Virus record (IMG/VR): IMGVR_UViG_3300030329_002700
Location: 1-44,214 of that record
Length of the DNA stretch: 44,214 nt
Reading direction: 5' to 3' (one strand)
Source of the DNA: a virus
Shown: piece after piece, positions 4,664 to 44,214 of the stretch
How positions within the stretch are numbered: position 1 is the first letter of the stretch
Layout: every line of letters starts with the position of its first letter
Translations under genes and position numbers: made by a program
Notes under the pieces: model-generated
What the model saw: the letters and a program-made list of their open reading frames with translations, nothing else
What the model was told of the DNA's origin: nothing
The model's database searches: none

Positions 4664-4691
4664 TTGTTGCGAAAAACTCAATGGATTTGCC

Positions 4692-6362
4692 ATGACCATT
4701 AGCAGCGAGACAACAAAGTCTGGTCCCTACGATGGCAATGGGTCCACCGATACGTTCGCCTATGCCTTCCTTGTCTATGACGAGGCGGACCTGGAGGTGG
4801 TGCTGAAATCAAGCGCCGGCGTCGAGACGATCAAGAGCATAAGCACTCACTACACGGTGACCGGTGTCGGGGCCAGCAGTGGCAATGTTGTCATGGGAAC
4901 GCCGCCGGCAAACGGTGAGACCCTGACGATCAGGCGCAAGCAGGCGCTTACCCAGGGGACGGACCTGACCAACCAGGGTGCCTATGTCGGCGAGACGCAT
5001 GAGCGCGTGTTCGATGAGACAATACAGAAGATCCAGCAAGTTGACGAAGAAGTGGAACGGGCGATCAAGGTGGGGGTCTCGCAGGCCACCGCCGGCATAG
5101 ACTTCACGATGCCAGGGCCGACTGCATCGACGGTGATAGGTGCCTGGAACGCGGATGCGGACGCAATCGTCGCCGGGCCAACCGTATCGGCGATTGACAA
5201 CGCGCAGGCCAATGCAACCGCGGCAGCGGCCAGTGCTGTTACAGCTGCGGCCGAGGCTTCTGCGGCCAATCCAAAATACACGTTCAGCACGACCACCAGC
5301 ATGGCGGATCCTGGGGCCGGCACACTTCGTTATAACAATGCCAGCGTGGCGAGTGTTTCGGCCATAGCGATTGACGACACAACCGCCGATACCGGCAACC
5401 CTGACATCGAGGCGTGGATCGCAAGCTGGGACGACAGCACCTCTACAATCAAGGGATGGCTTCGCCTGGTCGAGCCAGGTACGCCGGCGAACTATGCCGT
5501 GTTCCACATCACCGGGCTGACAAACAACAGTGGATGGGTGCAGCTTGCTGTCAGCCACGTTGATAGCAATGGCACATTCGGCAACGGCGATAGCATCCGG
5601 GTGATGTTCTCGCGGTCGGGAGATAAGGGCGATACAGGAGCGACGGGCGCACAAGGGCCGCAAGGCGATACCGGCCCGATGTCAGGGCCAGGCTCCTCGA
5701 CCGACAACGCGGTCACCCGGTTCAACGGAACAGGTGGCGGCACGGTGCAGAACAGCGGCGTCACGCTTGACGACAGCAACAACCTTAGTTTCCCCGATGA
5801 CGCTAAAGTTCAGTTTGGCGCCGGAAATGATCTTCAAATTTATCACGATGCAAGCAACAGCTACATAAAAGACGCCGGCACTGGTCTTCTGGTAGTGCTG
5901 TCAAATCATTTCCGGGTCAACAACGCGGCAAATTCGGAGGTCATGTTACAGGCCACTGAGGACGGCGGCTGCGATTTGTACCACAACAATGTGTCAAAGC
6001 TGTCAACAACCGCCAATGGTGCGACTATTACCGGGACGGTTCTGGCGACCACCGATACCGATACCAGCAACACTGGAAGTGTAACGCTGGATTTCGCAGC
6101 CAACCAAAACTTTGTCTTGACGCTTACGGGCAATGTCACCCTTGCAAACCCAAGTACAGAACAGGTTGGTCAGGCCGGTGTAATTGTCTGCATCCAGGAT
6201 GGCACGGGTTCTCGCACCTTGTCGCTTGGCACCGACTACGAAACGGCTGGCGGCGCAGGGATTACTCTCAGCACGGCGGCAAGCGCGGTCGATGTGATCC
6301 CGTACTTCGTCAAAGCCTCTGGCAGTATTCAGCTAGGCGCACCGCAGTTGGCGTTCAGCTAA
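4692..6362 (+). CDS. Tail fibre protein with T7 gp17-like N-terminus and collagen-like repeat
   Basis: This 556-residue protein probably forms the receptor-binding fibre of the short tail. Residues 1 to about 125 resemble the virion-anchoring N-terminal domain of T7-group fibres, with the typical features of a GSTDTFAYAF segment near the start, a TLTIRRKQALTQ strand and a helix around FDETIQKIQQVDEEVERAI. An alanine-rich linker follows, then a beta-rich region, then a short collagen-like Gly-X-Y run from G310 (GDKGDTGATGAQGPQGDTG). The C-terminal part contains a segment of the form DLQIYHDASNSYIKD, common in fibres of marine phages. No strong ribosome binding site precedes the ATG. The stop codon overlaps the next ATG by one base (TAATG), so the two fibre genes are probably translated together. 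The trimeric state is inferred from the family. Confidence 0.85.
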   Translation: MTISSETTKSGPYDGNGSTDTFAYAFLVYDEADLEVVLKSSAGVETIKSISTHYTVTGVGASSGNVVMGTPPANGETLTIRRKQALTQGTDLTNQGAYVGETHERVFDETIQKIQQVDEEVERAIKVGVSQATAGIDFTMPGPTASTVIGAWNADADAIVAGPTVSAIDNAQANATAAAASAVTAAAEASAANPKYTFSTTTSMADPGAGTLRYNNASVASVSAIAIDDTTADTGNPDIEAWIASWDDSTSTIKGWLRLVEPGTPANYAVFHITGLTNNSGWVQLAVSHVDSNGTFGNGDSIRVMFSRSGDKGDTGATGAQGPQGDTGPMSGPGSSTDNAVTRFNGTGGGTVQNSGVTLDDSNNLSFPDDAKVQFGAGNDLQIYHDASNSYIKDAGTGLLVVLSNHFRVNNAANSEVMLQATEDGGCDLYHNNVSKLSTTANGATITGTVLATTDTDTSNTGSVTLDFAANQNFVLTLTGNVTLANPSTEQVGQAGVIVCIQDGTGSRTLSLGTDYETAGGAGITLSTAASAVDVIPYFVKASGSIQLGAPQLAFS

Positions 6363-10071: not shown

Positions 10072-10493
10072 TGATTTACCCTATCAAAGAGATATCCGAC
10101 AGCCTGAAGCGTCACGAAGGCTACGCTCAACATGCCTACGTTTGCCCGGCCGGGGCTACCAGCGTGGGGTATGGACGCAACCTGGATGAGAAGCACGGCG
10201 GCCTGGGCATTAGCCAGGAAGAAGCGGAGTACCTTCTGGCCAATGACATCAAACGCTCGATCGAGGAATGCGAGAGGTTTGGCTGGTGGGAAGACTGCCC
10301 GATGGACAAGCGCCAGGTCATCATCGAATTGTGCTTTCAGATGGGGTGGCCTTCTCTCACGAATTTCAACCGGATGCTGTCCCATATGGCAAAGCAATCA
10401 TATGACCTGGCGGCGGTCGAATTATTGGATAGTCGCTTTGCCAGGCAAGTGCCGCATCGAGCAGCGGAACTTGCCGAGAGGCTTCGGGCCTGA
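10068..10493 (+). CDS. Endolysin, GH24 phage lysozyme
   Basis: This 141-residue muramidase would cleave peptidoglycan at lysis. The active-site pattern of the GH24 family (Glu, then Asp or Cys nine residues on, then Thr six residues on) is present as E17, C26 and S32 (HEGY, VCPAG, SVGYG). The usual threonine is therefore a serine, and the middle residue is the cysteine variant known in part of the family. There is no obvious signal peptide, so export should depend on the holin. The C-terminal helix contains the usual LLDSRFARQVPHRAAELAER-type ending. The ATG overlaps the holin stop and the stop overlaps the next gene (TGATG). Confidence 0.85.
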   Translation: MMIYPIKEISDSLKRHEGYAQHAYVCPAGATSVGYGRNLDEKHGGLGISQEEAEYLLANDIKRSIEECERFGWWEDCPMDKRQVIIELCFQMGWPSLTNFNRMLSHMAKQSYDLAAVELLDSRFARQVPHRAAELAERLRA

Positions 10494-11548
10494 TGGCGTC
10501 GCGAAGTTTACCCGAAAAGGTATTGCGGCAGACGCTTGATGCCGTTGAAAGGGCCGATGGCAATATCTCCGCGGCAGCGATTGCGGTAGGAATAAACCGA
10601 TCGACGTTTGAGGGACGCTATCGTAGGGCAAAACAAGTTCTGATGCCCGACAGTTCAGCTGATGATGAGTCAGAAACAGAGGTGTTGCTGCCGGAGTTTC
10701 CTGACGAAGATATCGATGTCGAGGAAATCCTGGACCACCTGGGTAAGCGTTGGTCGAAAAAGCAGGAACATGAGAAATCTAAGCGCTGGTTTGATATCAA
10801 AATAAAGTCTGATGAAGTATTTGGCCTGGCTGTCGTTGGAGATCCGCACCTGGGGACGCATTGCAATATCCCGTTGTTGAGGCGAGACGTTGAGATTATG
10901 TCAACAACGCCTGGCATCCATTGTGTCAATATCGGGGATACCACGAACAATTGGCCGGGCTACGGTCGCTTGGCTGCGCTCTATGCGGAGGAGGATATGT
11001 CGCGGCCGACAGAGCGGAAGCTGGCCAGGTGGTTCCTTGAGGCGCTGCCCTGGGTGGTTTGGCTCGAAGGCAACCACGACAACATGGCCGGTGAACTATC
11101 GGTCTACTTGCGATCGCAAAACGTAAAGCAGATCCCGATGTTGGATTGGCAGGCGCGGTTTAAGCTGGTTTTTCCGTCTGCGACGATCAAAGTCGATGCG
11201 GCTCATAACCACAAAGGGACCAGCATTTACAACCCGCTACATGGTCAGCGGAGAGCTGACCTCTGGGGGGAGGACGCAGACATCTACGTTGCCGGCCACC
11301 ACCACACCTGGGCAATACAGCAGCAGGAGCGCGCCAACAGCGATGGCAGCTGTGTCACCTACGCCAGGGCGAGGGGATACAAGTGGCACGATGAGTACGG
11401 CAAGAGGGGCGGATTTCACGAAGAGCGGTATGGCTCGACAATTATATTTGTGATCGATCCAAAGGCACCGCCGCCGACCAGGGTGAAGCCGTTTGCCGAC
11501 CTGGAGGAGGGTGCGGAGTTCCTGACCTGGAAGCGGGGAAGAAAATAG
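10493..11548 (+). CDS. Calcineurin-like metallophosphoesterase with N-terminal helix-turn-helix
   Basis: The 351-residue protein carries the metallophosphoesterase motifs in order: DPHLG, GDTTNNW, GNHDN, and a GHHHTW block near the C-terminus, which together bind two metal ions. The first about 45 residues look like a helix-turn-helix (AVERADGNISAAAIAVGINR then STFEGRYRRA), as if the enzyme had its own DNA-binding domain. The substrate cannot be read from the sequence; nucleic acid phosphodiester bonds are possible given the HTH. It begins at the lysozyme stop codon and is the last gene of the late operon, directly before the attachment site. A post-lysis-cassette position is a common place for extra, non-structural phage genes. 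Confidence 0.8.
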   Translation: MASRSLPEKVLRQTLDAVERADGNISAAAIAVGINRSTFEGRYRRAKQVLMPDSSADDESETEVLLPEFPDEDIDVEEILDHLGKRWSKKQEHEKSKRWFDIKIKSDEVFGLAVVGDPHLGTHCNIPLLRRDVEIMSTTPGIHCVNIGDTTNNWPGYGRLAALYAEEDMSRPTERKLARWFLEALPWVVWLEGNHDNMAGELSVYLRSQNVKQIPMLDWQARFKLVFPSATIKVDAAHNHKGTSIYNPLHGQRRADLWGEDADIYVAGHHHTWAIQQQERANSDGSCVTYARARGYKWHDEYGKRGGFHEERYGSTIIFVIDPKAPPPTRVKPFADLEEGAEFLTWKRGRK

Positions 11549-12900: not shown

Positions 12901-13117
12901 CAGCGAATGCGTCCAGTCGCTGATCGATTTCTGACGTTTCTTCTTTGGTCGGCAGCCGATCGAATGCTTCGTCCAGCTGTTCGCGATCCCAGACGCTGAC
13001 CTTGTCCGCTTTTTTCGGCGGGGGCATACGTCCGTCTGCGACCAATTGATCGAACTTGCTGACGCCCAGGGCAACGTAGGCAGCCGCATCCCGGCGTCGC
13101 AATCCGCGCGGCATCAT
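12887..13117 (-). CDS. AlpA/MerR-type DNA-binding protein, probable excisionase
   Basis: This 76-residue protein has a winged-helix pattern near its N-terminus (RRDAAAYVALGVSKFDQLVA, then MPPPKKADKVSVWDREQLDE) that is typical of AlpA-like regulators and phage excisionases. It lies directly upstream of the integrase and overlaps it, which fits an Xis function at attP. The start at 13117 gives the ATGA overlap with the preceding gene used throughout this operon; a GTG nine bases upstream is also possible. Confidence 0.75.
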   Translation of the reverse strand: MMPRGLRRRDAAAYVALGVSKFDQLVADGRMPPPKKADKVSVWDREQLDEAFDRLPTKEETSEIDQRLDAFADGLR

Positions 13118-13368
13118 AGCAGCCACCAGTCACGCAGCCTGGACCACAAACTCCGGCGCTTTGACAGCGGTACGTCGTAGTGGCTGATCTCGCCATAACC
13201 GCGAATGATCTGGCCAATTCGCTGGGCCTTGATCCGCACTGGGTTGAATTTGCTTTCATCCCTGATCGCATTCTCTATCTCTAAATAGGTTAAGCCGGCG
13301 ACGGCCAGCTGCACGATCATATCGTCGCGCTGCTTTTTCAGTTCACTCAATGGGATTTTACCGATCAT
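13114..13368 (-). CDS. Small basic protein of unknown function
   Basis: The 84 residues are not recognised as a named family. The N-terminal half (SELKKQRDDMIVQLAVAGLT, then YLEIENAI) could form helices of a DNA-binding fold, and the middle (NPVRIKAQRIGQIIRGYG) resembles a recognition helix. It overlaps the previous frame and the excisionase gene by ATGA at both ends, which supports coupled translation within the leftward operon. Confidence 0.6.
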   Translation of the reverse strand: MIGKIPLSELKKQRDDMIVQLAVAGLTYLEIENAIRDESKFNPVRIKAQRIGQIIRGYGEISHYDVPLSKRRSLWSRLRDWWLL

Positions 13369-13544
13369 GATCGTTCCTCGCTAGGTGGGATTTTCTCAAC
13401 AAAGTGCAGCAGTGTCCGAATCGCGTTGATGCATTGTTTCCTGGGAAACGGAAGGATGTTTACTTCGCCATCAACCGCGACGACCAACTCGCACTTGTCT
13501 GTATCCTCGGGGTCTGCCCTAAAGTATGCCAGTGCTTTAGAAAT
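13365..13544 (-). CDS. Open frame without a standard start codon, possible frameshift extension of the gene at 13537-13680
   Basis: This frame encodes about 59 residues (ISKALAYFRADPEDTDKCEL, then VVAVDGEVNILPFPRKQ) and ends in the ATGA overlap with the next gene, a strong sign that it is translated. No ATG, GTG or TTG lies near its beginning; only ATT (13544) or CTG would serve. It starts where the 47-residue frame upstream ends at UUC UAA, and a +1 shift there would join the two into one protein of about 105 residues. Real frameshifting, a non-standard start or a single-base assembly error are all possible. Confidence 0.5.
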   Translation of the reverse strand: MSKALAYFRADPEDTDKCELVVAVDGEVNILPFPRKQCINAIRTLLHFVEKIPPSEERS

Positions 13545-18035: not shown

Positions 18036-18049
18036 GGTTCAGATCCTAA

Positions 18050-18515: not shown

Positions 18516-18794
18516 TTAAAGTATCTCAAATTTTCCTGCGGAGTTACGCAGCTTGACCGTTGTGCATCCGGCGTAAGCCATACCGAAGTCATCGAGCGGT
18601 TCAAAGCCGTCAAAGTCGCCGTAGAGTTTGCCCGAGTAGTAAAGCACCATGTCATCGTCAAGCAGTTGGAAGTCGGTCTCGTTATTGGTTGGCATAGGCT
18701 GATCAATTTTGTGCGATCCGCCTTCAAATCCAAGGGCTTCGCTTTTGACATTACCGTCAATGTGGTCGGCGGTAATTATCCATCTGTAAGTCAT
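18516..18794 (-). CDS. Small acidic protein, first gene of the leftward operon
   Basis: This 92-residue protein (MTYRWIITADHIDGNVKSEA, then DFQLLDDDMVLYYSGKLYGD) is mainly beta-strand and acidic and is similar in style to small uncharacterised proteins of phages and plasmids. Its function is not known. A ribosome binding site (AAGGAGAG) lies upstream of the ATG and the promoter with two operators is 45-70 bases upstream, making it the first gene made from the leftward promoter. Confidence 0.7.
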   Translation of the reverse strand: MTYRWIITADHIDGNVKSEALGFEGGSHKIDQPMPTNNETDFQLLDDDMVLYYSGKLYGDFDGFEPLDDFGMAYAGCTTVKLRNSAGKFEIL

Positions 18795-18816
18795 GTGTCT
18801 CTCTCCTTGTTGTGTC

Positions 18817-18833
18817 GTTGCGATAATCTCAAC
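18817..18833. promoter_or_regulatory. Family B operator at the leftward promoter
   Basis: GTTGCGATAATCTCAAC matches the palindrome GTTGNNATNATNNCAAC at all 12 fixed positions. It lies just downstream of the -10 hexamer, over the expected start of the leftward transcript, so a bound protein would block the promoter. Confidence 0.65.
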
Positions 18834-18896: not shown

Positions 18897-19541
18897 TTAG
18901 AGGGAGCGGGACATCCAGACGACGCGGCCCTTGATCTCGACCGAATCAAGGGGCTGTTCAGTCGCACCGTAATCGGCATTCGCCGATGAGATCCTGACCT
19001 TTTCGCCAGGCAGGGCTTCGAGGCGCTTGATCACCAGGCCGGCACCGTCCCACAGGACAAAGACGCCAGGCGGGGAAGGGGCCTTGCGCGCGCAATCGAC
19101 ACACACGCGATCGCCAGGCTGAAGCATGGGCGTCATGCTGTCGCCATCGACGCGGATGATTGCCAGGTCGTTTATCGCACCGCCCATTGCCTGGACCTGT
19201 TCGGGCGGGAAGGCCCACCAGGCGACTGGTGCTTCCTGGTCGTTCAGGGCGCCGGGGCCGGCCGCGGCTCTCACGTCCAGTTCAGGTATCGAGCGTGTCT
19301 TGTTCGAGCCTTTGCCGCTGGCACCGACCTGAGCGATCTTGGGCGAGACGAATTCCTGCCAGTCCAGGTCTACCTTGTCACATACAGCCAATGCGACATC
19401 TGCCGGCAGATACTTGGGCTGCCCGCGGCGGATGTATTGCTGCAAATAAGTTCGGTTTTTTCCGGCTGCCAGGGAGAGAGATTGCATATCCTCTCGACTG
19501 TCGAGGATCGCGTCGTGCAGCTTGCGACGGACAGTATCCAT
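18897..19541 (-). CDS. CI-type repressor with S24 (LexA-like) peptidase domain
   Basis: This 214-residue protein is the probable lysogeny repressor. Residues 1-65 form an unusual helix-turn-helix (SLSLAAGKNRTYLQQYIRRG) and residues 85-214 an S24 peptidase domain. The self-cleavage machinery is visible: nucleophile S135 (DGDSMTPM), general base K172 (LVIKRLE), and a candidate cleavage bond A94-G95 (RAAAGPG). This implies induction by the host RecA response. The gene faces the Cro-like gene across a 136-bp gap that contains three operators of family A, which makes this protein the best candidate for binding them. Confidence 0.85.
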   Translation of the reverse strand: MDTVRRKLHDAILDSREDMQSLSLAAGKNRTYLQQYIRRGQPKYLPADVALAVCDKVDLDWQEFVSPKIAQVGASGKGSNKTRSIPELDVRAAAGPGALNDQEAPVAWWAFPPEQVQAMGGAINDLAIIRVDGDSMTPMLQPGDRVCVDCARKAPSPPGVFVLWDGAGLVIKRLEALPGEKVRISSANADYGATEQPLDSVEIKGRVVWMSRSL

Positions 19542-19582
19542 AAAACACCTGAATTACGCCAAGAAATCTGGGCGCACCGTAA

Positions 19583-19596
19583 TCGGAACTTACCGA
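19583..19596. promoter_or_regulatory. Family A operator between the repressor and Cro-like genes (upstream copy)
   Basis: TCGGAACTTACCGA is a near-perfect dyad with one mismatch between half-sites. Its centre is 22 bp from the next copy, two turns of DNA, which would favour cooperative binding. A weak leftward promoter (TTGATC-17 bp-TACGGT) for the repressor overlaps this area. Confidence 0.55.
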
Positions 19597-19604
19597 CCGA
19601 TCAA

Positions 19605-19618
19605 TAGGAAAAATAAGA
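19605..19618. promoter_or_regulatory. Family A operator just upstream of the rightward -35 box
   Basis: TAGGAAAAATAAGA differs by one base from the copies at 15789 and 18050. It abuts the -35 hexamer of the rightward promoter (TTGCGA from 19619), so its occupancy could block or assist polymerase. Confidence 0.55.
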
Positions 19619-19647
19619 TTGCGACATTCTGACACCGGGCCTATAAA
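19619..19647 (+). promoter_or_regulatory. Rightward early promoter (PR-like)
   Basis: TTGCGA (19619-19624) and TATAAA (19642-19647) are 17 bp apart. Transcription would start near 19654, inside the operator at 19653-19666, and read the Cro-like gene at 19678 and the replication genes after it. Confidence 0.7.
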
Positions 19648-19652
19648 GGAAA

Positions 19653-19666
19653 TCGTATTTTTACGA
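19653..19666. promoter_or_regulatory. Family A operator, perfect dyad over the rightward start site
   Basis: TCGTATTTTTACGA is a perfect 5-4-5 inverted repeat lying on the expected transcription start and ending three bases before the GGAG ribosome binding site of the Cro-like gene. It is the most symmetrical member of family A. Confidence 0.65.
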
Positions 19667-19677
19667 CTGGAGCGAAA

Positions 19678-19878
19678 ATGGACAGTACGGAATTCCTCGA
19701 CACCGTCGAAACCTTCATCAGAAAGAGATCGATGTACCCGACAGAATTCGGATCGAAAGTGATGAACGATGGGTCTTTCGTTTTCGATCTCAGGTCTGGG
19801 CGATCGGTAACGCTGAAGACCCAGGCGCGGGTGCTTGATTACATCGATGCGACTGATGCTGAAGATCAGGCTGCCTGA
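19678..19878 (+). CDS. Cro-like small regulator
   Basis: The 66-residue protein (MDSTEFLDTVETFIRKRSMY, then PTEFGSKVMNDGSFVFDLRS) has the helix-turn-helix layout of small regulators often encoded opposite a CI repressor in alphaproteobacterial phages: helix 1, the F-G-x-K-V turn and a wing before a last helix. It is the first gene on the rightward early transcript and would be expected to repress the CI promoter. It overlaps the resolvase gene by 32 bp. Confidence 0.7.
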   Translation: MDSTEFLDTVETFIRKRSMYPTEFGSKVMNDGSFVFDLRSGRSVTLKTQARVLDYIDATDAEDQAA

Positions 19879-23143: not shown

Positions 23144-23356
23144 TTATAAATTCAGCCCCAGGCGACGCAGCATCTCGATTGTAGAGATGTCGAGAAATCT
23201 TGCGATTGTCTCAACCTCATCAAGCCGAACCCGCCTGGATCCGTCTAGCAACCGTGTTACCTGGGCGCGATCTATTTTCAGTTCCTTGCCGAGAGCCGTT
23301 TGCGTTTTGCCCAACTCGGCTAGGCGATCGACGATGTACACGCGATCTGGTTTCAT
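23144..23356 (-). CDS. XRE-family DNA-binding protein (second block, downstream gene)
   Basis: The 70-residue protein (MKPDRVYIVDRLAELGKTQT, then LKIDRAQVTRLLDGSRRVRL) is an almost minimal XRE helix-turn-helix domain. The ATG at 23356 follows a GAAGGG ribosome binding site; an in-frame extension upstream would run through the operator and promoter region. It is one of two adjacent XRE proteins and a candidate to bind one of the two operator families. Confidence 0.75.
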   Translation of the reverse strand: MKPDRVYIVDRLAELGKTQTALGKELKIDRAQVTRLLDGSRRVRLDEVETIARFLDISTIEMLRRLGLNL

Positions 23357-23368
23357 TACACACCCTTC

Positions 23369-23398
23369 ACCATAGGAAAAATCCGATTGGTCGGGCAA
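23369..23398 (-). promoter_or_regulatory. Candidate promoter with family A operator
   Basis: On the minus strand TTGCCC (23393-23398) and TATGGT (23369-23374) are 18 bp apart, with TAGGAAAAATCCGA (23373-23386) in the spacer. It would drive the XRE gene at 23356. The hexamers are weak matches. Confidence 0.4.
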
Positions 23399-23425: not shown

Positions 23426-23641
23426 CTAGTCTTTCTTTAACAGAATATCGATTTCGTAGCCGAGAGCCTCTGCAATAGCTTCGACCGCATCCAGCTGCGG
23501 ATGTATGCTGTTTTCGTAATTTCTGATTGTGCTTGGAGCGACATCACAAATGTCAGCGACCGCCTGAACCGACATGCCGCGTTCGCGGCGAATGTCATTC
23601 AGTATTTTGCCGACAGGGCTGACTGGAATGTTGCGCTTCAA
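23426..23641 (-). CDS. XRE-family DNA-binding protein (second block, first gene)
   Basis: This 71-residue protein is a single XRE domain: VGKILNDIRRERGMSVQAVA, then DICDVAPSTIRNYENSIHPQ as turn and recognition helix. The start is a TTG preceded by GGGAG. It is transcribed leftward from a promoter that carries both operator families, so it is probably autoregulated and is the best candidate for the protein that reads family B. A LexA-like domain is absent, so unlike the CI protein it is not expected to be cleaved in response to DNA damage. Confidence 0.75.
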   Translation of the reverse strand: MKRNIPVSPVGKILNDIRRERGMSVQAVADICDVAPSTIRNYENSIHPQLDAVEAIAEALGYEIDILLKKD

Positions 23642-23656
23642 AAAAACACTCCCGTA

Positions 23657-23670
23657 ATCGTACTATTCCG
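23657..23670. promoter_or_regulatory. Family A operator upstream of the second repressor block
   Basis: TCGTACTATTCCGA is a 5-4-5 dyad with one mismatch. It starts at the -10 hexamer of the leftward promoter and extends over the transcription start and leader of the XRE gene at 23641. Confidence 0.55.
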
Positions 23671-23698
23671 ATCATGGTTGTAAGTTGGGATAATTGCA
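23670..23698 (-). promoter_or_regulatory. Candidate leftward promoter of the second repressor block
   Basis: On the minus strand TTGCAA (23693-23698) and CATGAT (23670-23675) are 17 bp apart. The family B operator covers the -35 hexamer and the family A operator lies at and beyond the -10, the mirror image of the order at 18817-18865. Confidence 0.5.
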
Positions 23699-23699
23699 A
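23683..23699. promoter_or_regulatory. Family B operator over the -35 of the second block's promoter
   Basis: GTTGGGATAATTGCAAC fits the palindrome at all 12 fixed positions and covers the -35 hexamer of the leftward promoter of the second XRE block. Confidence 0.65.
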
Positions 23700-23712
23700 C
23701 TATTTTATGAAC

Positions 23713-23745: not shown

Positions 23746-23777
23746 CGCCCCGCGGCATTCACCGTGGGGCGTTTTTT
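23746..23777 (+). terminator. Rho-independent terminator before the late genes
   Basis: CGCCCCGCGG and CCGTGGGGCG form a 10-bp stem with one G-T pair around a 6-base loop, followed by TTTTTT. It would stop rightward transcription coming from the replication genes, isolating the late operon. Confidence 0.75.
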
Positions 23778-23790
23778 GTTTTGGCAAACT

Positions 23791-23807
23791 GTTGTTATTA
23801 TCTCAAC
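23791..23807. promoter_or_regulatory. Family B operator abutting the small terminase start codon
   Basis: GTTGTTATTATCTCAAC fits the palindrome at all fixed positions and ends at the base before ATG 23808. No ribosome binding site fits between. TATTAT within it could act as a -10, placing the transcription start on the start codon. Confidence 0.6.
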
Positions 23808-24218
23808 ATGACAAAGCAGACGCTGACGCCGAAGCAGGAGGCTTTTTGCCTGGCATATGTGGAAACCGGGAACGCCAGCGAGGCTTACCGCCAGGCTTAC
23901 AACGCGGGAAACATGAAGCCGGAAACGATTAACCGGAAAGCAAAGGTTGAGATTGATAAGGGCAAGATCAGGGCAAGGGTCGCAGAGTTACATTCCAGGG
24001 CGCAGCGCAAGCATGACATCACGATCGAAACACTGACCGAAATGTATCGAGAAGCGTTCAACATGGGCAAAGAGATCGAGCAACCGGCCGCCATGAACGG
24101 ATCTGCTACCGGGCTGGCAAAGCTGCATGGTCTCATAACCGACAAGTCGCAGACCGAGGTCTCGGTATCGTTTGGGTTTGCCGATCGCCTGGCAGCCAGA
24201 AGGGCGGCGCGTAAATGA
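23808..24218 (+). CDS. terS: Small terminase subunit
   Basis: This 136-residue protein is a phage small terminase of the Terminase_2 type. The N-terminal helix-turn-helix is visible (TPKQEAFCLAYVETGNASEA, then YRQAY and a second helix), followed by helical oligomerisation sequences. It recognises the phage DNA and activates the large subunit, encoded directly downstream with an ATGA overlap. The ATG at 23808 was preferred over an upstream TTG because the family starts at the TKQTLTPKQ sequence. Confidence 0.85.
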   Translation: MTKQTLTPKQEAFCLAYVETGNASEAYRQAYNAGNMKPETINRKAKVEIDKGKIRARVAELHSRAQRKHDITIETLTEMYREAFNMGKEIEQPAAMNGSATGLAKLHGLITDKSQTEVSVSFGFADRLAARRAARK

Positions 24219-28117: not shown

Positions 28118-28296
28118 ACTGCTGGCATTGCGGCGAAAAACTGATCTGGGGCGGCGACCACGATTACGAAATGTCGGATGAATTTGACCTGGAGACTAAT
28201 CTCAGCTGCCCGCGGTGCCATGCCCATGTCATTGTTTACCTCAAATTTGACGACATCACCGATGCCCTCAAGAACAAGCACCCGGACGTTCATTGA
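28114..28296 (+). CDS. Small zinc-ribbon protein
   Basis: Sixty residues with CWHC near the start (C3, C6) and CPRC at about 32-35, spaced as in a zinc ribbon (MNCWHCGEKLIWGGDHDYEM, then SCPRCHAHVIVYLKF). It overlaps its neighbours by ATGA and TGATG. It may be a virion-assembly factor; no function is known. Confidence 0.65.
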   Translation: MNCWHCGEKLIWGGDHDYEMSDEFDLETNLSCPRCHAHVIVYLKFDDITDALKNKHPDVH

Positions 28297-28643
28297 TGGC
28301 GGATAACGGCACGGACCTGTCGTCTGCCCGAGAGGTTCGCCAACGCACAGCGGTTGTCCGTAACAACCAGGAGCAATTTGGTCGTGATCTTGATGTTGTG
28401 TTATCCTCAACAGAAGGCAGGCGGTTTGTCTGGTTTTTGTGCCAGGGAGAGATGCTGGGCGACAGCGGCGCGTTGACCGATGCATTTGTTGTGGATCAAC
28501 CGGATCTGACGGCATATCGGCTAGGTCGGCAGTCAATGGCGCGGGCATTGCTGGCCGAGATTATGAAGCCGCAACGCAAAGATGTGTATGCGAAGATTGT
28601 TGAGGAAATAACATCAATGGAAAGGGTGAAAAATAATGGCTGA
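28296..28643 (+). CDS. Bbp19-like phage protein
   Basis: The 115-residue protein resembles the Bbp19 family of Bordetella phage BPP-1 relatives: a helix LSSTEGRRFVWFLCQGEMLG, a middle loop, then YRLGRQSMARALLAEI and a short tail. It is a small helical protein encoded between the portal and scaffold. Its function is not established. The ATG at 28296 was preferred over a TTG three bases upstream. Confidence 0.65.
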   Translation: MADNGTDLSSAREVRQRTAVVRNNQEQFGRDLDVVLSSTEGRRFVWFLCQGEMLGDSGALTDAFVVDQPDLTAYRLGRQSMARALLAEIMKPQRKDVYAKIVEEITSMERVKNNG

Positions 28644-31619: not shown

Positions 31620-34357
31620 TGGCAAAGGTCATCAAGGCCAGTTTTACCGGCGGCGAACTGGGTCCGTCGCTCCATGCCCGCGTCGATCTCACCAAGTACG
31701 AAACCGGCCTTGCGACCTGTTTCAATACCCTGATCCACGCGCATGGCGGGGCGTCCAACCGCCCAGGCACGGAGTTTATCTGCGAGGTAAAGGACAGCAC
31801 GAAGGCCGTCAGGCTGATGCCGTTTTCCTTCAATACCGAGCAAACGTATTGCCTGATCGCGTCTGACAGCAACATGCGGTTCATCAAGGATGCCGGCCAG
31901 ATTGTCGAGGCAACGAAGACAATTTCAGCGGCCACAAGGGCCAATCCCTGTGTGGTAACAGCAACCAGCCACGGCTACCAAAATGGGGAAGAGGTGTTCA
32001 TCTCCGGCGTTGTGGGCATGACGCAGCTGAACGGGCGAAACTTCCGGGTTAGCAACAAAACCGCAAATACGTTCGAACTTCAGGATCTTGCCGGCACCAA
32101 CATAAATTCCTCTGCGTTCACCGCGTATACATCAGGCGGCACCGCGGCGCGGGTCTACACAATTACCACGCCATACCCGGAAGCGGTTCTGTTCGACCTG
32201 AAGAAAACCCAGTCGGCCGATGTGATGACGTTTTGTCACCCAAGCTATGCGGTGAGGGATCTGACCAGGACAGCCCATACCTCCTGGTCGTTTACCGAAG
32301 TAGAATTCAGCCCGACGCAGACATTTGTGACCAACCTTGCTGTCACGGCAAACACAACCGGTTCGGTTACCGATCGATACACTGTCACCGCCTATAATGA
32401 GGAGGATGGCGAGGAAAGCCTTGCCGGTATCTCGGGCCACAAGGCCATCAGTAATATTACACAAGCCAACCCGGCGGTTGTAACGACGGCAACGCACGGG
32501 TTTGTAGATCACGATGAGGTTTTGCTTCAAAACATCGGCGGCATGACCGAGTTGAACGGTCGGCGTTTCAAGATCAACCAGCTGTCGTCCACCACGTTTG
32601 AACTGACAGGTGAAAACACAAGCGGCTACACCGCCTATACATCAGGCGGCACAGCTGCCCTGACGTTTGTTGAATTAACCAACAGCAACAGCACGCGCGA
32701 CAACACGATAACCTGGACCGCGAGTACAAACGCCGACAGCTACAACGTCTACCGCGACGTGAACGGCGTCATGGGGTTCATCGGATCTGCCGAAAATCCG
32801 ACCTTTACCGACAACAACAAGGAACCCGACGAGACCGACACGCCGCCGAAAGAACGCAACCCGTTCCGCGGCGAAGACAATTTTCCATCAACCGTCAGCT
32901 ATTTCGAGCAACGAAAGGTCTACGCCGCTACCAATAACAAGCCGCAAACGATCTTTTTCTCGCAGTCGGCAAACTACGACAACATGACGTTTTCATCGCC
33001 CCGAAAGGACGATGACAGCATCACAAGAACGGTCGCCGCCAGAGAAGTCAATTTAATACGCCACCTTGTGCCTTTGTCCGACCTGATTTTGCTAACATCT
33101 GGAGGAGAATGGAAAGTATCCGCGGGATCCAACGAGGTCATCACGCCTTCGTCCATCATCGTAAAGCCGCAAGAGTTCCGCGGTGCCAGCAAGGTCGAGC
33201 CGATCGTCGTCGGCAATACCGTTCTGTATGTCCAGGACCAGGGCAGCACGGTACGCGATCTTGGCTATAAGCTGGAAAGCGACGGCTATACCGGCACCGA
33301 TCTCAGTATCCTGGCAAATCATCTTTTCTACGGGTTTTCGATAATTGACTGGGCGTACCAGGAGAACCCGCACAGCGTGGTGTGGTGTGTGCGATCCGAT
33401 GGCGTTCTGCTTGGCCTGACCTATCTGCGCGAACATGAAGTCTGGGCCTGGCATCGCCATGAACTGGGCGGTGAGTTCCAGGGCGGCCATGCTGTCGTTG
33501 AGAGTGTTGCGTGCATATCGGAGGGAAGCGAGGACGCGCTTTATATCTGCGTAAAGCGCACGATTGGGGGCGCAACCAAGCGATATATCGAGCGCCTGCA
33601 TACCCGCGTGTTTACCGATGTCGAGGATGCCTTTTTTGTGGACAGCGGCCTGACGCTGGACAGCCCTGTCACCATTACCGGGGCGACAGCCGCCAACCCG
33701 GTTGTCGTAACTGCGCCGTCGCATGGGTTCAGCAACGGCGACGTTGTTGATATCGAGGATGTTGTCGGCATGACCGACATCAATAAAAATGGCTGGATTG
33801 TTGCGGATAAGACAACAAACACATTTGAATTGCAGAATTCAAACAGCACGGACCTGGACGGATCCGCGTTCACCGCCTACGCCTCTGGCGGCAAGGTCCG
33901 AAAAGCCGTGACATCGATTTCGGGGCTACACCATCTTGAAGGGCAGACGGTCTCGGCGCTGGCAAACGGATTTGTCGTTTCGGGTCTCACGGTCAGCAGC
34001 GGGGCCGTGACGCTGCCGAACGCTGCCAGCCGCGTGCATATCGGCCTGCCGTATGAGGCAGCGATCGAAACGCTGAACCCGGAAGTGTCGGGCCAGTCGC
34101 GGGCTACGATCCAAAGCGACAAAAAACGAATCTCGAACATAACCGTGCGCGTTGAGAATACCCGGGGCATATTCATCGGCCCCGACAGCACACGCACCGT
34201 CGAGATGAAACAGGGGCTAAACGACCTGACAACCGGCGATCTGTCGATGTCGATCCGTCCAACCTGGAACACAAACGGCCGCGTTTACATCAAGCAGCCG
34301 CATCCGTTGCCCATGACAATCCTGTCAGTGATCCCGGACATCAATGTCGGAAGCTAG
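31619..34357 (+). CDS. Tail tubular protein B-like (T7 gp12-like nozzle) with three FCCH-like repeats
   Basis: The 912-residue nozzle protein starts AKVIKASFTGGELGPSLHAR and DLTKYETGLATCFNTLIHAH, which are typical of gp12-type nozzles of BPP-1-like phages. Three copies of a domain of about 60-70 residues occur at about 108-178, 283-345 and 692-760 (for example VVTATSHGYQNGEEVFISGV, then TANTFELQ and TAYTSGGT), each with a GMT-[DQE]-[LI]-N core. Similar segments are often annotated in phages as ubiquitin-E1 FCCH-like domains; the name implies fold similarity, not ubiquitin activity. They probably decorate the tail. The gene overlaps the next by 14 bp. Confidence 0.85.
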   Translation: MAKVIKASFTGGELGPSLHARVDLTKYETGLATCFNTLIHAHGGASNRPGTEFICEVKDSTKAVRLMPFSFNTEQTYCLIASDSNMRFIKDAGQIVEATKTISAATRANPCVVTATSHGYQNGEEVFISGVVGMTQLNGRNFRVSNKTANTFELQDLAGTNINSSAFTAYTSGGTAARVYTITTPYPEAVLFDLKKTQSADVMTFCHPSYAVRDLTRTAHTSWSFTEVEFSPTQTFVTNLAVTANTTGSVTDRYTVTAYNEEDGEESLAGISGHKAISNITQANPAVVTTATHGFVDHDEVLLQNIGGMTELNGRRFKINQLSSTTFELTGENTSGYTAYTSGGTAALTFVELTNSNSTRDNTITWTASTNADSYNVYRDVNGVMGFIGSAENPTFTDNNKEPDETDTPPKERNPFRGEDNFPSTVSYFEQRKVYAATNNKPQTIFFSQSANYDNMTFSSPRKDDDSITRTVAAREVNLIRHLVPLSDLILLTSGGEWKVSAGSNEVITPSSIIVKPQEFRGASKVEPIVVGNTVLYVQDQGSTVRDLGYKLESDGYTGTDLSILANHLFYGFSIIDWAYQENPHSVVWCVRSDGVLLGLTYLREHEVWAWHRHELGGEFQGGHAVVESVACISEGSEDALYICVKRTIGGATKRYIERLHTRVFTDVEDAFFVDSGLTLDSPVTITGATAANPVVVTAPSHGFSNGDVVDIEDVVGMTDINKNGWIVADKTTNTFELQNSNSTDLDGSAFTAYASGGKVRKAVTSISGLHHLEGQTVSALANGFVVSGLTVSSGAVTLPNAASRVHIGLPYEAAIETLNPEVSGQSRATIQSDKKRISNITVRVENTRGIFIGPDSTRTVEMKQGLNDLTTGDLSMSIRPTWNTNGRVYIKQPHPLPMTILSVIPDINVGS

Positions 34358-34811
34358 TGTACAGCCCCTGGACGAGGAAACCCTCGCAGAATGCGCTGCG
34401 AAGGCGCGTGAGATCGATCGCCAGGAAGCCATGCTTCAGACCGGCCGGCCGCTTGATGAGGCCATGTGGCGCTCCTATCGCATGTCAACGGGCTGTTATG
34501 CCGGGCGGTGGGGCGACGACCTTGTTTGTGTCTGGGGCGTTGCTGCCCTGGCACCCCTGGAGGGGATTGGTCAGCCGTGGATGGTGGCAACGCCAGTGAT
34601 TGACCGTGCAGCGTTTCCGTTTCTGCGTCATTGTTGGTATTATCTCAACAAAATGAAGACTGAAAACGATTTCCTCTGGAACGTGGTCTGGGAGGAAAAC
34701 ACTGCTGCGCGACAGTGGTTGTCCTGGATGGGGTTTGAAATGAAACAACCGCGGAAAGTAGGTCCGTTCAACCGTAATTTCATTCCGTTCGAGTGGTCGG
34801 CAAATGTGTGA
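34344..34811 (+). CDS. T7 gp13-like internal virion/acetyltransferase-fold protein
   Basis: The 155-residue protein has the pattern of the DUF2833/gp13 family, with a GNAT-like fold (GRWGDDLVCVWGVAAL, then RAAFPFLRHCWYYLN). In T7, gp13 is an internal virion-associated factor in this position. The acetyl-CoA binding motif of true acetyltransferases is not clear, so catalytic activity is doubtful. A family B operator-like palindrome lies inside the gene (34633-34649). Confidence 0.7.
   Translation: MSEASVQPLDEETLAECAAKAREIDRQEAMLQTGRPLDEAMWRSYRMSTGCYAGRWGDDLVCVWGVAALAPLEGIGQPWMVATPVIDRAAFPFLRHCWYYLNKMKTENDFLWNVVWEENTAARQWLSWMGFEMKQPRKVGPFNRNFIPFEWSANV
34633..34649. promoter_or_regulatory. Family B operator-like palindrome inside the gp13-like gene
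   Basis: GTTGGTATTATCTCAAC matches all 12 fixed positions of GTTGNNATNATNNCAAC and shares TATTATCTCAACA with the copy at 23791. It lies inside a coding region of the late operon. If bound, it could act as a roadblock on late transcription. Confidence 0.5.
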
Positions 34812-43300: not shown

Positions 43301-44214
43301 CGAAATGGCGGCACGGGAAGGCTACGACCAGGTCAGCTGGACACCCGGCGAGGTGCAGGCCGATCGTTATGATCTGAGTAAACAGGTAGACAGCATCCGC
43401 GTTGAAAAGCTGCGCGATGGTGATAAAGCCGGTCAGTATTACGTCACCGCTGAGAAAGACGGCCGAGGTGCCGGCATTGCGGAGGTTGTGACAGAAGACA
43501 AGCTGGCAGGGGTGATCGGCAAAGAACTTGCTGAAAAGGCTATCGCGGATGCCCCCGATAATCCTGACGGGAAAGATTACACCGGCCTTGATCTGAAGAT
43601 CGGCGGCAAGGGCATGAAGAAGTTTTATGACCAGATGGTCAAAAATTATGCCAGCAAGTTCGCCAAGAAATTCGGATCTAAGGTTACGACGACAGAAATC
43701 GAACTGCCTGAAAGTGTCGAGCAAGGGCGTAATATAGATTTTGATGAACTCGAAGCGGATGCGATCGAGTTTCTTAAAGAGCAGGGGTGGCGGTTAGAAG
43801 AAGACCCGGACGGGGTAACTCTACTTTTCGATCCGTCTGGAAACAGTGTGGGAGAGGATCCGGGCGGCGGTGAAATCATCGATTTTGCCGAAAGCCAGGG
43901 TTGGGTAGATCCGTCCGAGGCACAGTTCAGAGCAACCTTAATTGAGGCTAGCAAAAAAGAAGTCTGGACGATGCCCGTCACCGATCAGATGCGGGCGTCG
44001 GTCGGGCAGCAGGGTGTGCCGCTTTTCCAGGGTGGCCAGGCCAGGGATCTTCTCACTGAACAAGACAAACAGGCGGCAGTCGATCAGGCAAATCGGTTCA
44101 GTGACTTGGCGGTTTCATTCGATGCCGAAACGACGCTTGAGAATGAACTGGAATTTCGAGGCTTGATGGTCGAGTACGACAGGCAAAAAGACTTTATTTT
44201 TCTCAACGATCTTG
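37308..44214 (+). CDS. Giant polyvalent virion protein, N-terminal part (residues 1-2302)
   Basis: The gene starts with GTG at 37308 and reads without a stop to the window end, continuing at base 1 and ending at 4622; the whole protein has 3,809 residues. It has an acidic N-terminal part and glycine-rich hydrophobic stretches at about 231-271 and 411-435, perhaps for membrane insertion. An ART-PolyVal type ADP-ribosyltransferase domain lies at about 862-1265: YHGT (862-865), AYGWGLYF (891-898), AEHYR (905-909), EYLDWD (1022-1027) and a closing LPGNRFLD block. A helical module lies at about 1444-1662 (VDLWLAR, then QAALWYYEQ). A module with IEEIQSDWHQRGRKHGY begins at 1959. LFQ linkers stand at 1719 and 2239, where domains change. 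It would be packaged and injected with the DNA; host target and activity are unknown. Confidence 0.85.
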   Translation, partial: MVNLLENDEEDILSQPDNEGPGDTLTPKPENDFAARLEAMVQQLDQQATDLNKFRTKQSVSFAGDVPNPDDHAVDVENADKTNLPVEVAQAQRPAFDAAALDAQVEKMNPGYLKWLADRDNAAISKDDTSTLERISALWDATKGAYKTGNAITDVGLLGFKNLTGDITDAELLELKARERDLERLQQQQKLSGFGGDTALEQLLAPSGFILSSVESLPMLIQTQTGSLDEAMQGGLIGGTAGFAFGGVGAVPGFFGGIGAGWRVGMGLEAGKLEAGLAFQEYITMKDDNGQLLDRDLARTAALLTGAVNGGLEVFAMKTLLKAAPGGEQFLRMVSREGMKEALKRPTFRRALTNYSKRVAMAGGAEGVTEFLQETMTTVAGSVAKALQQGRVGELATGEFWAKTFGESAYAGVRGMQGGAGTATVLGAPTVALDVNRARNAERDKLWFDELAAGATESKTRQRSPGRFADFIREQAAGSNVETVYVDANRFVEMFQGMGFDADEVAENFDLDPAEIDAAREAGTDIGIDVGTFAAKIAPNEALYKGVEADLRITPDSMTMREAVKFKEEIQANVDDEVERIVLENEGASETEIIYNQIFGQLRNAGQGPDAADAVAQNVVSAVVSQAEMDGITPLELWVQYPLDIERVLPEQLEVKQGVSTAQEVIMERARTGRRRTERQLFGRSLIDFVRDRGVRYDPDAVDTPTQLSIEGGRLNVEGGPANLGADPMIGDLQGMDIDKDLRPGERRALRPEGMTLDDLALAAQEAGYFPERLLEQGDRIDINDLVEAIRENLAGNFTYIPEAENIQDRDLDAAADELVDALNSIGLDPTEMTLDEIREVIDRERSKAVGDGGIELQHSAYHGTGASELEGGRFDISRVGDPTVGEGHTAYGWGLYFASERGVAEHYRAQNAPNTVKIKIKDFDIGDGTFFSTDTMAPGYVFLNDQFAQQFEWFAAHSESFDVAVSGLKEWAQQRIDNPYYEGRRDKIERDLRLLDQLTEDDVTVEKGSLYRVELQPDIDEYLDWDIPVNEQSQDIQDKLRRMLNPSEHVYFDLDIHSETYGQYVDISVEDDISIWEKSKLKYQDIAAAKDDRELVKLLREIGDSEEEIAKRLAQKKEVRDFDDPRSDYYRLQVYNRKKLMADANVDAMMRAPTGGFFYRNLSGALSGGRSVVGRGDQATSMMLRDAGLPGNRFLDAQHRGWSDQLFGPGRQLMFKGEPVPSHVAKLIAEQSETAAFFDTTQPDQPLTQSLPADTVKVVLDDQILERWRRRLELEQQPPAEELGPMATASNEMLARFDAQRDEAIEILSEMAAEPDQVKIEKTGEGYNFVLYDDSLVDVTGKQGIDFFQSSVPLQRRPLKIEGTGPGGRVTNWDFAEALTDRHMEKHGRVLDPSAPQDMKLIVREGNREFINQARQDDTGEAWYTEDIASAMETTAAYIPALQESHPDAELYQELFLVMTALMSPQEKPPQNWEKASLAFEGYIPDGLIPDKKPNGKGWGVNALAFPLLQHMMDTMGLKETLVWLREPHTGREIAEMRRASGIFKGGDKSQSLAQYKAAETTLGETYLGIYMFGPKVGDFMMNSTGHDLEAVTVDLWLARSYNRHIGRLLDVGPKLKADRKIISEVRTPSERKLIKAWVRELAEKNGMTASAMQAALWYYEQRLFRNHGIQSESTNFNGSAVLAAERRGVTVPGRSGDVSGTLQAEGAEQSAASGPTLFQSGIPAEGVTPFYSAVTRAADDLAIEKGTGEQFLAAIKKTAGVRDEEISWIGLDEFLAGRKGVTRQEVQDYVRENQLVIEEVVKAGRLVQTAEGLGDRQMPVYGSSDFNLPGGTNYREVLLKLPVQDAERISGYVVPTNDVMADDILTGMSFEGLEDLDYGRAVDRRGDDIIEFNDLSRGSYNQVKQIVEAAGGRLREAGRSGKTETFVGSHFPTEENVLAWVRVNDRIGPNGEKILFIEEIQSDWHQRGRKHGYDKGGVPDAPFKNTWHEMSFRRVVEMAAREGYDQVSWTPGEVQADRYDLSKQVDSIRVEKLRDGDKAGQYYVTAEKDGRGAGIAEVVTEDKLAGVIGKELAEKAIADAPDNPDGKDYTGLDLKIGGKGMKKFYDQMVKNYASKFAKKFGSKVTTTEIELPESVEQGRNIDFDELEADAIEFLKEQGWRLEEDPDGVTLLFDPSGNSVGEDPGGGEIIDFAESQGWVDPSEAQFRATLIEASKKEVWTMPVTDQMRASVGQQGVPLFQGGQARDLLTEQDKQAAVDQANRFSDLAVSFDAETTLENELEFRGLMVEYDRQKDFIFLNDL
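44116..44214. repeat. Right copy of 99-bp terminal direct repeat
   Basis: Identical to bases 1-99; see the left copy. The frame is unbroken through this point in both copies. Confidence 0.95.

Follow-up and report, generated by a model that had tools for sequence, protein, structure and literature searches.

Genome organisation and two palindrome families

The virus contig IMGVR_UViG_3300030329_002700, analysed over its whole length of 44,214 bases (the window), carries a 99-bp direct terminal repeat (1-99 = 44116-44214), which makes it most likely that the record represents a complete circular unit. Comparison of the terminase with those of named phages revealed Pseudomonas phage AF (52%) and epsilon15-like phages (46-47% identity) to be closest. 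An internal virion protein of podovirus type is encoded along with a head-tail adaptor, a CI-like repressor of the S24 type and a tyrosine integrase; the phage appears to be a temperate epsilon15-like podovirus. Starting with terS (23808), the late genes extend rightward across the record ends to ~11.5 kb and include a 3809-aa open frame, from 37308 onward, that spans both record ends. Early genes lie on either side of CI and are read in both directions. Between early and late genes, XRE27 and XRE26 form a short leftward operon. Coordinates of the regulators and of the sites discussed below are listed in Table 1.

Table 1. Regulatory genes, palindromic sites and hairpin of the window
Feature	Position	Strand	Sequence	Location or assignment
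XRE26	23144..23356	-		70-aa Cro/CI-type HTH, HTH_3 above cutoff; favoured candidate B binder
XRE27	23426..23641	-		second small HTH protein, same operon, HTH_3 above cutoff
S24 CI-like repressor	18897..19541	-		Peptidase_S24; favoured candidate A binder, not B
Site B1	23684..23700		GTTGGGATAATTGCAAC	XRE27-XRE26 promoter region
Site B2	23791..23807		GTTGTTATTATCTCAAC	directly 5' of terS ATG at 23808
Site B	18817..18833		GTTGCGATAATCTCAAC	~ -3 to +15 of leftward promoter-like pair
Site B	34633..34649		GTTGGTATTATCTCAAC	within late gene 34344-34811
Site B	10889..10905		GTTGAGATTATGTCAAC	within phosphoesterase-like gene 10493-11548; fifth exact copy
Variant site B	28395..28411		GTTGTGTTATCCTCAAC	within late gene 28293-28643
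Weaker site B	4666..4682		GTTGCGAAAAACTCAAT	between two late genes
Weaker site B	13384..13400		GGTGGGATTTTCTCAAC	15 bp ahead of 13114-13368 start, beside integrase gene
Weaker site B	23199..23215		CTTGCGATTGTCTCAAC	within XRE26 gene
Intrinsic terminator-like hairpin, rightward	23746..23771	+		between B1 and B2
Family A operator (putative)	23657..23672		ATCGTACTATTCCGAT	at -10/+1 of XRE27-XRE26 promoter
Family A operator (putative)	23372..23387		ATAGGAAAAATCCGAT	just upstream of XRE26

A sequence-only reading of the window had described a 17-bp palindrome, here termed family B (GTTGNNATNATNNCAAC), in four perfect copies. The palindrome is real, but five exact matches were found (10889-10905, 18817-18833, 23684-23700, 23791-23807 and 34633-34649); the copy at 10889-10905 had been overlooked, and the one at 23684-23700 had been placed one base off, at 23683-23699. 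Exact matches were absent from 100 dinucleotide shuffles. With up to two mismatches, 9 matches were obtained versus 1.4 expected, a number reached in no shuffle, and a weight matrix scan at a threshold of at least 15.4 bits revealed four more sites (13384, 23199, 4666 and 28395) versus 0.11 expected in total. One of the two loose copies proposed before was located correctly (13384-13400); the other, given as 23192-23208, is actually at 23199-23215. Family B thus comprises five strong and four weak sites, symmetric 17-mers whose half-sites sum to the consensus GTTGNGATWATCNCAAC, and 4/9 of them lie inside genes (10889, 23199, 28395 and 34633).

The placement of the sites was then compared with that claimed. 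One copy does abut the first late gene, with B2 ending directly before the terS ATG, and no ribosome-binding site is visible at the B2/ATG junction. Promoters of the two repressor blocks had been named for two further copies; this holds for B1, which lies in the XRE27-XRE26 promoter region and also takes up the 17 bp between the hexamers of a promoter-like pair facing rightward (TTGTAA-17-TATTTT in the window, TTGTAA-17-TAAATT in the relative L004), but not for the copy at 18817, which is not at the CI promoter. The promoter-like pair at that copy (TTGCAA-16-TATACT, 18865-18838) serves a 92-aa gene (18516-18794) downstream of CI, and neither exact nor matrix scans revealed a B site in the CI/early divergent promoter region 19541-19678. 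A single copy, at 34633, had been assigned to the interior of the late operon; it is indeed within a late gene, but so is 10889, and the late operon carries four spread B sites in all (4666, 10889, 28395 and 34633), 3/4 of them intragenic. Promoter and start-site calls were made by consensus matching, with promoter-like sites being no more numerous region-wide than in shuffles and terminator-like sites not clearly more numerous.

A second palindrome family, family A, consists of 16-bp sites of the type ATCGGAnnnnTCCGAT at 18049, 18845, 19582, 19604, 19652, 23372 and 23657, with weaker sites in the early leftward region. Family A flanks CI and the early promoters and overlaps the XRE operon promoter (register TTGCAA-17-CATGAT) at -10/+1. 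An A-type site upstream of XRE26 is also present in the relatives L004 and L247 and, weakly, in L253.

Conservation of family B sites in relatives

The position of the motif in relatives had been named beforehand as one of the points on which the operator reading could be refuted. Fragments of close relatives cover eight of the nine B places, and the site was found to be kept in all eight. Where centre or flanks vary at the five comparable sites of the strong or variant type, all eight bases of the arms are unchanged; the weak sites are identical (23199 in L004, 4666 in L050 and 13384 in L049). The 10889 site is identical in L049, and in L050 it differs once, at the free centre. In L004, B1 retains its arms and both hexamer positions, and B2 is found at the same position. 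L129 retains the 18817 promoter and B site ahead of a different gene. A mosaic junction was observed in this relative at ~2400-2600 (window 18516-18830), where the promoter with its A and B sites is kept and the gene behind it is replaced. No viral relative of the gene holding the 34633 site was found.

The variant site at 28395 is retained in L013, L007 and L247 (L247 form: GTTGTGATAAGCTCAAC), although the encoded proteins are only 59% (L007) and 40% (L247) identical to that of the window. Residues shared with L007 use the same codon in 5/5 cases inside the site versus 18/57 outside; for L247 the counts are 3/5 versus 13/34, and one of the two changed codons within the site differs only at the base just outside the 17. 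A degenerate site, GTTGAGGAAATAACATC, occurs at 28599, 204 bp past 28395, and its offset matches that of a full-arm site, GTTGAGGAAAACGCAAC, at 5214 of L007.

Two more distant epsilon15-like fragments, L247 and L253, share the layout of the XRE-terS interval: the promoter of a small XRE gene contains a site, and a hairpin lies between this site and another one ahead of the ATG. In both, a few bases separate the end of a perfect site (GTTGTGATAATCTCAAC) from the first late ATG, and the B-like site upstream of XRE26 contains a TTGACA -35-like element that is followed by an A-type site. A third B site in L247 lies in the same late gene as 28395. By inspection, the hairpin in the B1-B2 interval is also present in L004, L247 and L253. 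The first late ORF of L247 (4973-5701) and L253 (from ~1396) encodes TerS with an extra N-terminal part, which by eye is GIY-YIG-like (FYIYSLSD...VFYIGKG) and gave no NCBIfam match.

When viral and genome contigs were scanned for the pair pattern, L004 was recovered (again as L023); the other matches looked unrelated, and no homologue of XRE27, XRE26 or TerS was found among them, viral or genome. The three viral pair-pattern loci that were opened proved to be coding DNA. The locus L138 of Hyphomicrobium sp. LHD-15, with two exact copies 119 bp apart (5495-5511 and 5614-5630) and no others in its genome, was set aside; by eye, they are flanked by a peptidase-like gene on one side and a short ORF similar to ribosomal protein S15 on the other.

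Pairing of the palindromes with candidate regulators

Three proteins had been proposed as binders of family B, those encoded at 23144-23356 (XRE26), 23426-23641 (XRE27) and 18897-19541 (CI). A terS-based scan yielded 79 new loci (1.15 Mb). A homologue of XRE26 was present in 2/79 only, L247 (54%) and L253 (58% identical, matched part), and the relaxed B motif occurred in the same two loci only (Fisher p = 3e-4). The other loci, covering 1.13 Mb, gave no match of at least 18 bits, while the sites of L247 and L253 score up to 25.7. Together with L004, the B motif co-occurs with XRE26 in three relatives. In L247 and L253, XRE26 and the late gene have no XRE27 between them, and it is on these two loci only, both fragments, that the separation of XRE26 from XRE27 is based.

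The XRE26 sequences conserve GKTQ..LG and D.AQV.R.L.G.RRV, which likely form the DNA-reading part of the protein. The predicted structure of XRE26, with a middling pLDDT of 72, looks HTH-like, and its PDB fold matches were not significant. Searches revealed no XRE26 homologue in named phages, where XRE27 gave three weak unrelated matches, and none in plasmids. For XRE27, no homologues were found in the 385 genomes of the class searched or in a genome scan, and close to the genes of its relatives in L005 and L006 (~42%) no GTTG-N9-CAAC site is present.

XRE26-type HTH genes were drawn from the genomes of a single class and phylum, the class being Alphaproteobacteria, as this is the class of Hyphomicrobium. 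The B matrix was trained on the five window sites alone, a locus was ~2-3 kb, and upstream was defined as within ~250 bp. At XRE26-type loci, some of which are related to each other, the best B match of the locus lay upstream in 6/11 (0.9 expected) and the best A match in 3/11. At loci of CI homologues it was the best A match that lay upstream in 12/22 (1.6 expected), and the best B match in 4/22; according to these cross controls the base rate is nearer 20% than 8%, since upstream regions are AT-rich. Between the two types of loci, B scores differ with p = 0.0014 and A scores with p = 0.008. L325, L326 and L332 each have two B-like sites, 34 bp apart, upstream of the XRE26-type gene. The trend is that B goes with XRE26-type HTH genes and A with CI-type genes, a specificity pattern short of proof. 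By eye, the XRE26-type HTH is in-frame with a UbiX-type flavin prenyltransferase-like protein in L321, L322, L324 and L327-L330, and in the translation of L326 the part downstream of the HTH resembles RibB.

CI is the likely reader of family A, because A sites lie on either side of CI and the early promoters as well as across the XRE promoter; alphaproteobacterial CI homologues likewise carry A-type sites upstream. This assignment is not airtight, since A-type sites are present in the fragment L247 but an S24 gene is missing from its usual place.

Of the other possible readers of family B, XRE27 has in its favour that B1 lies directly upstream of its gene and that the protein is 94% identical in L004, where B1 and B2 are both kept; it is missing, though, from L247 and L253, which retain the sites and XRE26, and we regard it as an improbable binder in this phage. 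It is still less probable that CI also binds B and that B is simply a second kind of CI operator. One promoter, at 18817/18845, is indeed shared by A and B, but A-type sites are commoner than B-type sites upstream of CI homologues, and the CI/early divergent region lacks a B site. Sites that are spread genome-wide and within genes would be possible for centromere-like elements; a role of family B as a host transcription factor, partition (ParB-like) or DNA-packaging site is nevertheless very unlikely, given that B sites track XRE26 and that no ParB-like family was found among the proteins scanned, which were part of the ORFs. The original idea that family B is the operator of an XRE protein linking early and late control thus partly holds up, in that the positions are conserved and the sites track one XRE gene, with the candidates narrowed: XRE26 is favoured, XRE27 is absent where sites are kept, and CI goes with family A.

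A possible two-operator circuit and its relation to known systems

We consider it reasonably probable that family B is the operator of XRE26, that CI reads family A, and that late control is by repression. Early and late genes of the phage would then seem to be controlled via two different operator words. XRE26 would bind the 17-bp palindrome with the consensus GTTGNGATWATCNCAAC as a dimer, while CI would act on family A at the early promoters and at the XRE27-XRE26 promoter. From the overlaps of promoters and sites in L247, L253 and the window, XRE26 should repress its own promoter via B, with autoregulation at B1, and CI should repress it via A. At B1/B2, XRE26 would gate entry into the late operon; it would provide a second input on the early promoter at 18817 and would also occupy the sites across the late operon (4666, 10889, 28395 and 34633). 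The intragenic ones among these late sites may serve as roadblocks, or as decoys that titrate XRE26 with growing genome copy number. Family A overlaps the XRE promoter at -10/+1, so that XRE26 is probably produced while CI is off and would be a lytic-phase timing factor and not a maintenance repressor.

As B1 overlaps promoter elements and B2 lies at the start of the first late gene, bound XRE26 would block initiation or passage, and we favour blocking as the function to which the positions of B1 and B2 point. The same protein might instead bind B and activate late transcription or relieve termination at 23746-23771. Owing to the terminator-like hairpin between B1 and B2, late transcription may need something to allow passage, and with A overlapping the XRE promoter, XRE26 would arise after loss of CI; both points suit an activator. 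A precedent exists in GIL01, a phage of Bacillus thuringiensis, whose LexA homologue is reported to activate lytic genes (PMC6182141). The likeness lies in a dedicated lytic-phase regulator acting on late transcription; GIL01 is an unrelated phage, and repression is favoured here (PMC6182141). B1 on -35/spacer elements and B2 abutting the ATG are typical blocking positions, and an activator has no evident use for sites deep within late genes, so that activation by XRE26 appears unlikely, albeit the most plausible of the other explanations weighed here. Under the preferred reading of XRE26 as a repressor, we infer its binding, repression, roadblock or titration function and timing. More tentatively, a dedicated small HTH protein might silence the late operon, with the intragenic sites being symmetric roadblocks or a replication-coupled titration timer.

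In lambda, CI and Cro are small HTH proteins with autoregulation that act on 17-bp dyad-symmetric sites; they share operators, and late genes are under Q antitermination. In the phage described here, unlike lambda, each of the two protein types, CI and XRE26, appears to read a different operator word, and the late operon comes with sites of its own. Features of Cro/CI-type repressor/operator systems found here are a small phage HTH_3 protein, dyad sites at consensus-called promoters, including that of its own gene, and sites that are position-conserved in relatives along with the regulator. In the Streptomyces phage phiC31, conserved inverted repeats of ~17 bp are found at many positions, of which only some are early promoters, and all are attributed to a single repressor system. 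PhiC31 is the closer system in form, with dispersed palindromes of ~17 bp; the present phage shows signs of another palindrome family and another regulator in addition to the first.

The nearest system in behaviour is that of mycobacteriophage L5 and cluster A, in which repressor sites occur at promoters and dispersed elsewhere, with an elongation block proposed (PMC9283540). The L5 sites are asymmetric, orientation-bound 13-mers, more than 20 in number, at promoters and in short intergenic gaps, and they are read by a monomeric repressor of ~183 residues with an N-terminal HTH plus a Stoperator domain (PMC9283540). The sites described here are, in contrast, symmetric 17-bp palindromes, about nine in number and several in coding sequence, and the candidate reader is a 70-aa single-HTH protein separate from CI. 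Thus, none of the three features of L5-type stoperators that were tested (asymmetric 13-mers, more than 20 sites, HTH plus Stoperator domain) was found. For the epsilon15-like phage vB_EcoP_ZX5 (Uetakevirus), a temperate podovirus with repressor and integrase whose terminase is one of the most similar in named phages, a single repressor together with an anti-repressor has been described, and the excerpted description contains no operator map or late-gene control scheme (PMC9782041).

The kind of system is known; what is new is the separate late regulator together with the conserved intragenic palindromes. To our knowledge, late-gene silencing and timing in temperate podoviruses outside the lambdoid group have been little studied. 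Two operator words were matched to two regulators from sequence alone, which is good though indirect support, and upstream-site tests in homologues are a general way to pair orphan phage palindromes with regulators. For this phage, the late word is kept in a coding gene despite large divergence of the protein, and the two regulators with their two words would make up a small, directly testable circuit.
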